Shown here: in pieces, positions 37,646-39,289 of the stretch
Numbering within the stretch: position 1 is the stretch's first letter
Layout of the letters: the number at the start of each line of letters is the position of its first letter
NCBI GenBank assembly: GCA_016934315.1
Contig: JAFGSY010000038.1
Span: 1 to 64,000 of the forward strand
Direction of reading: 5' to 3'
From: Candidatus Anaeroferrophillus wilburensis
GTDB taxonomy: Bacteria; Desulfobacterota; Anaeroferrophillalia; Anaeroferrophillales; Anaeroferrophillaceae
DNA length: 64,000 bases
The notes under the pieces: model-generated
The model's input: only the letters and a program-made list of their open reading frames with translations
Told to the model about the DNA's origin: nothing
Database searches by the model: none
Position numbers and translations under genes: made by a program

Positions 37646-37755
37646 CATCACTCCCCTATCTGCCCTCTCATAGCGCCAGCTCCCTTGATGCGGCAAGCCA
37701 CCACCACGGCTGGCACGCACTGATATCAGAACACACAACTATCAACCACCTGCCA

Positions 37756-37771
37756 TGTTTCACGTGAAACA
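37756..37771. promoter_or_regulatory. parS centromere site (ParB binding)
   Basis: The 16-bp palindrome TGTTTCACGTGAAACA is an exact match to the bacterial parS consensus bound by ParB. The symmetry continues to 22 bp (37753-37774, CCATG...CATGG). It lies in a non-coding gap between ychF and the rpoZ terminator. ParB spreads from such sites and loads SMC. Most chromosomal parS sites are found close to the replication origin. Only this one copy was found by eye in the window. Confidence 0.92.
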
Positions 37772-37840
37772 TGGCCCCAGCCTCCAGGCACAGCAGATCA
37801 GCAACAACAGTACCTGAAGTTGAAGGGACATCATAACATC

Positions 37841-37868
37841 AAAAAAGAGGACCTACGGGTCCTCTTTT
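37841..37868 (-). terminator. bidirectional intrinsic terminator closing the dnaX-to-rpoZ gene run
   Basis: GAGGACC/GGTCCTC with a TACG tetraloop is flanked by six A's on one side and four T's on the other, so it can work on both strands. On the minus strand the T6 tract follows the stem, downstream of rpoZ. It lies 172 nt after the rpoZ stop; the stretch 37869-38040 shows no ORF. Confidence 0.85.
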
Positions 37869-38040
37869 CATGACACCCTACAACCATCATGGCTTCGCAG
37901 GACCATTTTCTTCGTAATCCTGCACCACTGCAGGGCATCGCGGCCCACAGGTGTTATGCATTGTGACGCTGAAGTTATTACTGTACCATTGCTTACCAGG
38001 GCTGTTACATATCCATCAACAACGGGCAGAAACAAACTCA

Positions 38041-38232
38041 CTATTCATACTCTGGCCATACCTTGCCGGCAGCGATCTCACGCAACGCCATGACAATGGG
38101 CCTATTCTTATACTGACCAACCAGAGGTTTTTGCCCCTTAAATAACTGCTTGGCCCGTTTGGAAGCCAGCGCAGCCAGTTCAAAACGATTCTCTACCTTC
38201 TCAAGGCAATCTTCTACTGTTACTCGCGCCAT
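38041..38232 (-). CDS. rpoZ: DNA-directed RNA polymerase omega subunit
   Basis: Omega helps fold beta-prime. The 63-residue sequence [20 protein letters not shown] and [11 protein letters not shown] matches the family, with [16 protein letters not shown]. It is short but complete. It follows gmk by 156 nt, as in many proteobacteria; the usual downstream spoT/relA is not here. Confidence 0.93.
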
Positions 38233-38388: not shown

Positions 38389-39006
38389 CTACACATAACC
38401 GGACCGCTTCAAAAACGCCTGCTGCCGACTCATGCGACAGCGCTCAGCAATAATGATGCTCGCCAACCGGGCAACCGCTGCATCAAGATCATCATTAACC
38501 ACCAGATAGTCGTAGCTTTGGCAATGGCCAATTTCTTCAACAGCGTTTTTCAGCCGGCCGGCAATAACCTCCTCATCATCGGTTGCCCGGCTGCGCAGGC
38601 GTGATTCAAGAACCACCATTGAAGGAGGTAAAACAAAAACCGTCACCACTTGGCCGGGCAACTGTTTGCGGACCTGCTGGGCACCTTTGACATCGATATC
38701 AAGCAGCACATCATGGCCGCTGGCAAGAATCTCTTGAATATTCTTTTTACCGGTGCCATAAAAGTTACCATGGACCCTTTCCCACTCAAGAAAAAAGCCT
38801 TCGTCTATCAGCAGGGAAAACCGCTCAAAAGAGATAAAGTTATATGCCGTTCCATCCTGCTCCCCTGCACGCGGGCTGCGGGTTGTATAGGAAACAGAAT
38901 AGCGCAGGTTATCGAGGCGAGCGATAGTTTTTTGCCCCAGAGTGCTTTTACCCCCGCCGGAAGGCGAAGATAAAACAAGCAGCATACCGCCATTGACATT
39001 AGCCAT
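38389..39006 (-). CDS. gmk: guanylate kinase
   Basis: Gmk phosphorylates GMP to GDP. The P-loop [11 protein letters not shown] lies near residue 15, GMP contacts are [13 protein letters not shown] and [14 protein letters not shown], and the lid is [12 protein letters not shown]. The ATG at 39006 overlaps the remA stop by 8 nt and gives 205 residues; the ATG at 38985 would give 198. The gene order yicC-remA-gmk-rpoZ is conserved in this part of the bacterial tree. Confidence 0.95.
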
Positions 39007-39289
39007 TGGCAGCATTCCCGTCAGCATACACAGGCTCAGCAACCGCCTCACGATCGTCAAAGCGCTGGGCAATAGTTTCCGCTTGGATTGCAGACATAAT
39101 CACGTGGTCACTGTCCATAATGATCAAGGCCCGCGTTTTACGCCCAAGGGTGGCGTCAACCAACTTACCCCGCGACTTGGCATCATCCTTCAGGCGTTTC
39201 ATCGGAGCCGATAGTGGGGTTACAATGGCCACCACCCGTGAGGCAACCACCGAGTTTCCTAACCCAATATTCAACAAACGATTACCCAT
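38999..39289 (-). CDS. remA: RemA-like regulator (DUF370)
   Basis: This 96-residue protein begins [22 protein letters not shown] and has [25 protein letters not shown], split here by family sequence. RemA in Bacillus is a DNA-binding activator of matrix genes. In Desulfobacterota its targets are not known to me. The C-terminal extension (about 15 residues) is longer than in Bacillus. The ATG at 39289 is internal to a longer frame whose start (39331) reads into yicC. Confidence 0.9.

Follow-up and report, generated by a model that had tools for sequence, protein, structure and literature searches.

A parS site behind rpoZ as the probable, and apparently sole, chromosomal centromere of Candidatus Anaeroferrophillus wilburensis

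An exact parS core lies between rpoZ and ychF

The gap between rpoZ and ychF in a 64,000-nucleotide stretch of the Candidatus Anaeroferrophillus wilburensis genome (the window; bases 1-64000 of contig C38, which totals 112,008 bp) contains a palindrome of the parS type. Is this palindrome the centromere of the chromosome, an operator of the gene beside it, or a sequence without function? When we scanned the window, we observed that the 16-bp parS core TGTTTCACGTGAAACA at 37756-37771 (no strand assigned) matches the consensus with 0 mismatches, as a preliminary description had claimed, while the next-best match inside the window has 3 mismatches. The same description had given the palindrome as 22 bp long. 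The sequence reads as a perfect 24-bp palindrome, GCCATGTTTCACGTGAAACATGGC, that encloses the core at 37752-37775 (no strand assigned), one base more on each side. The bases flanking the 16-bp core differ between relatives, and the perfect arms total 4 to 34 bp. Since the outer bases and the arm length vary in this way, the extended palindrome is not a defining feature of parS here.

The site had been correctly placed between its two neighbours, rpoZ (RNA polymerase omega; 38041-38232, minus strand, read from the sequence) and ychF (36548 to approximately 37651, minus strand; profile match to TIGR00092, E 5.5e-101). The rpoZ stop codon is 269 bp from parS, and the ychF start is about 100 bp from it. 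The guanylate kinase gene gmk (38389-39012, minus strand; profile match to TIGR03263) is also encoded here. Between rpoZ and parS, inspection of the sequence revealed a terminator-like hairpin on the rpoZ side, AAAAGAGGACCCGTAGGTCCTCTTTT, followed by T (37843-37870, minus strand). A similar hairpin is present in a relative of the window's family; a generic terminator scanner did not flag the one at 37843-37870. A longer perfect palindrome, of 30 bp (AAGGCCGTTTCTCATATGAGAAACGGCCTT), was seen elsewhere in the window, at 1098-1127, about 200 bp beyond a gene (237-881) whose product is a secreted protein of the PEP-CTERM type; it is possibly a terminator or a regulatory site.

The site is apparently the only parS in the genome

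We then considered the whole assembly (2,696,119 bp, i.e. 2.70 Mb, in 52 contigs; 98.19% complete), and found no further place with 1 or 2 mismatches to parS. Other places, with 3 mismatches, numbered 12, as against 7 with a reversed control, and these degenerate sites were rejected as background. By our own arithmetic (2.7e6/4^16), about 0.0006 exact 16-base matches would be expected by chance in 2.7 Mb. Judged from this 52-contig assembly, in which a second copy could sit in a gap, the site at 37756-37771 is apparently the only parS of the genome.

The site is close to the origin and on the contig that carries parAB

A profile search located parB on the same contig (open reading frame 95869-96759; TIGR00180, E 3.2e-60, match 96127-96669), with parA directly upstream of it (about 96840-97670). 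The cognate ParA and ParB are thus encoded about 58 kb from parS. The pair adjoins rsmG, mnmE, jag, yidC and rnpA (named from reading the translations). An SMC protein is encoded on another contig, C45 (912 bits).

Further along C38 are gyrB (103614-105998), dnaN (106101-107240) and dnaA (107476-108825), which together with a switch in GC skew lie about 66-71 kb from parS. The skew is negative across the whole left part of the contig and positive from about 107 kb, where the GC content falls to 36%, and two sequences between dnaN and dnaA, at 107297 and 107352, match the DnaA box. The skew switch and the DnaA boxes place oriC at about 107.3 kb, that is about 69.5 kb from parS, or 2.6% of the genome. 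The earlier expectation of an origin-proximal window was therefore borne out: the genes and the skew switch that it had proposed to look for all occur on C38, and the site is not far from oriC. The window can now be put on the genome map, to the left of oriC and on one replication arm.

ParB has parS-type recognition residues

The encoded ParB has the ParB_N, ParB HTH and C-terminal ParB dimerisation domains (Pfam), and its residues 12-224 align to the solved ParB/Spo0J structure 1vz0 (200 bits), with the GERR motif included. The related protein Noc recognizes a related 16-bp palindrome, NBS, distinguished from parS by its bases 1 and 6. A comparison of Caulobacter ParB with Noc assigned R173, T179, A184 and G201 to parS recognition, and Q, K, K and R at these positions to NBS (PMC7383237). 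Reading the alignment at these four positions, we observed R, M, H and G (GKDR...GHGR). As the R173 and G201 equivalents are kept, rather than Q and R, the protein is parS-type and not Noc-type: it agrees with ParB at both base-contacting positions and has no permissive lysine.

Among the NCBIfam models, this ParB scored higher against Noc than against parB_part, yet the score was under the Noc cut-off. With Noc-type residues absent, and with the DNA an exact parS, in which positions 1 and 6 do not have the bases of NBS, a Noc/NBS identity was rejected.

A weak second ParB-like match was noticed on contig C39 (G000:C39:41195-41458, 21.6 bits, in an open frame of 320 aa), and the matched stretch had no Pfam match. 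Several relatives within the order also show weak matches of this kind, again in open frames of about that length.

The position behind rpoZ is common to the order

We examined the locus in other genomes of the order. All five relatives whose locus is intact (G002, G003, G005, G009 and G013) have parS, with at most 1 mismatch, directly 3' of rpoZ, and a gmk-rpoZ-parS block is common to them. The distance from the rpoZ stop to parS is 93 and about 115 bp in relatives from the window's family; the sister family has a spacing of 13-21 bp. A sixth genome, G014, has a degenerate copy, AGTTCCACGTGCAACA, with three mismatches, 13 bp past rpoZ. In the other genomes of the order that lack parS, gmk either is not clearly present or is truncated by the end of a contig, so that the absence of parS there is uninformative. 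In G014 we also saw a second parS-like sequence, CGTTCCACGTGAAACC, with 3 mismatches, within gmk (G014:C303, L162, local position about 1675-1690); the degenerate copy past rpoZ is about 490 bp away. Half of the order's assemblies are without the locus, and many of G001-G014 lack either gmk-rpoZ or an above-cut-off ParB despite being 81-97% complete; contigs near the origin were perhaps lost in binning.

On the far side of parS, ychF is found in the window's family only, and the translation read in the sister family is that of a membrane glycosyltransferase-like gene. Because the sister family has rpoZ but not ychF beside the site, rpoZ is the order-conserved neighbour of parS, and adjacency to ychF is a local circumstance. 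The description of the site as upstream of ychF thus holds for the window's family, but not as the context across the order.

The site most probably works as an ordinary ParABS centromere

What we observed here is a lone site, a genome that also encodes parAB, dnaA, dnaN and smc, a ParB with parS-type residues, and an order-wide position of the site behind rpoZ. On this basis we consider it very likely that the site is the parS of the chromosome, apparently its sole one, and that it works in ParB loading, segregation and SMC loading. From established ParABS biology, we infer that ParB encoded 58 kb away would load at parS as a CTP-dependent clamp and slide to the flanking DNA, forming a partition complex. 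ParA would then move this complex, and thereby the nearby origin, toward the cell pole, and ParB would also load SMC. One parS near oriC is reported to be sufficient in several species (PMC7022226), some species have a single parS, and a zone of roughly 600 kb around the native site or the origin is reported to be permissive for an extra parS (PMC7333895). Given this sufficiency and this tolerance, a chromosome with one parS, 70 kb from its origin, fits comfortably.

The palindrome could instead be mainly a ychF operator, through which ParB or another dimeric regulator controls transcription from about 100 bp upstream. The site does lie upstream of ychF, and in Pseudomonas aeruginosa ParB bound at parS3 and parS4 represses the adjoining genes (PMC7022226). 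We regard this reading as very unlikely, since the sister family keeps the site behind rpoZ although its other flank is not ychF, the core is the ParB consensus that adjoins parAB in other orders, and no promoter-like sequence was found when we looked for one in the rpoZ-ychF gap. Local repression of ychF is possible as a side effect of ParB, and would not be needed to explain the site. That the palindrome is a chance occurrence or a functionless remnant, with the true centromere elsewhere, is scarcely credible: the fragmented assembly leaves room for such a centromere, yet an exact match is hardly expected by chance, this one is the sole site of a genome that bears parAB, and relatives retain it at this position despite otherwise diverged gap DNA.

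Read as a centromere, the locus resembles the chromosomal (Soj/Spo0J-type) ParABS systems of Bacillus subtilis and Caulobacter in its exact 16-bp parS, in parAB located by rsmG and mnmE near oriC, and in SMC. Those chromosomes have clusters of several parS sites, whereas here there is one; parAB is about 58 kb away from it, and oriC about 70 kb. It is like the single-parS chromosome of Xanthomonas campestris (PMC7333895) in having one parS near oriC, and differs from that type in that the site is behind rpoZ, a position common to the order. Nothing in it departs from known ParABS biology; it is a genuine, ordinary centromere whose lineage-specific position is modestly interesting. It provides a further clean case of a single-parS genome with the site distant from the parAB operon, and the conserved position behind rpoZ could help in asking why parS stays at particular loci.

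parS positions elsewhere in the phylum

We also evaluated the position of parS in related genomes. With at most 1 mismatch, parS was found in 52 of 79 genomes (the present one included), mostly one in each, as against 2 with the reversed control. Of the site-bearing genomes, 46 lie outside the order; most of these have parS next to parAB or mnmE, and in 25 the distance to parB is no more than about 5 kb. Three others have parS and parB on the same contig but about 50, 72 and 900 kb apart; in the remaining ones the two are on separate contigs or ParB is absent. Many of these sites adjoin mnmE all the same. This majority pattern suggests a shift of parS to rpoZ from an ancestor in which it was at the side of parAB.

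We lean towards the view that the order's single centromere, away from parAB and stably anchored behind rpoZ, represents an order-wide change of position within the origin region. The separation of parS from parAB is directly visible in the window's own genome only, because the other assemblies of the order are too fragmented. An order-wide parS position behind rpoZ and apart from parAB is mildly new, and a mild surprise. A literature search on parS in Desulfo- and Geobacter-type bacteria yielded nothing on point. YchF was also compared with named genomes; the matches (38-64% identity) were all distant and belonged to other lineages, and parS within one mismatch was absent from the stretches retrieved around them.

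In one single-contig genome, G026, we observed a pair of parS-like sites (C1:304939 and 305722) beside mnmE, with the best ParB gene at C1:1202812, an unusually large separation of about 900 kb.
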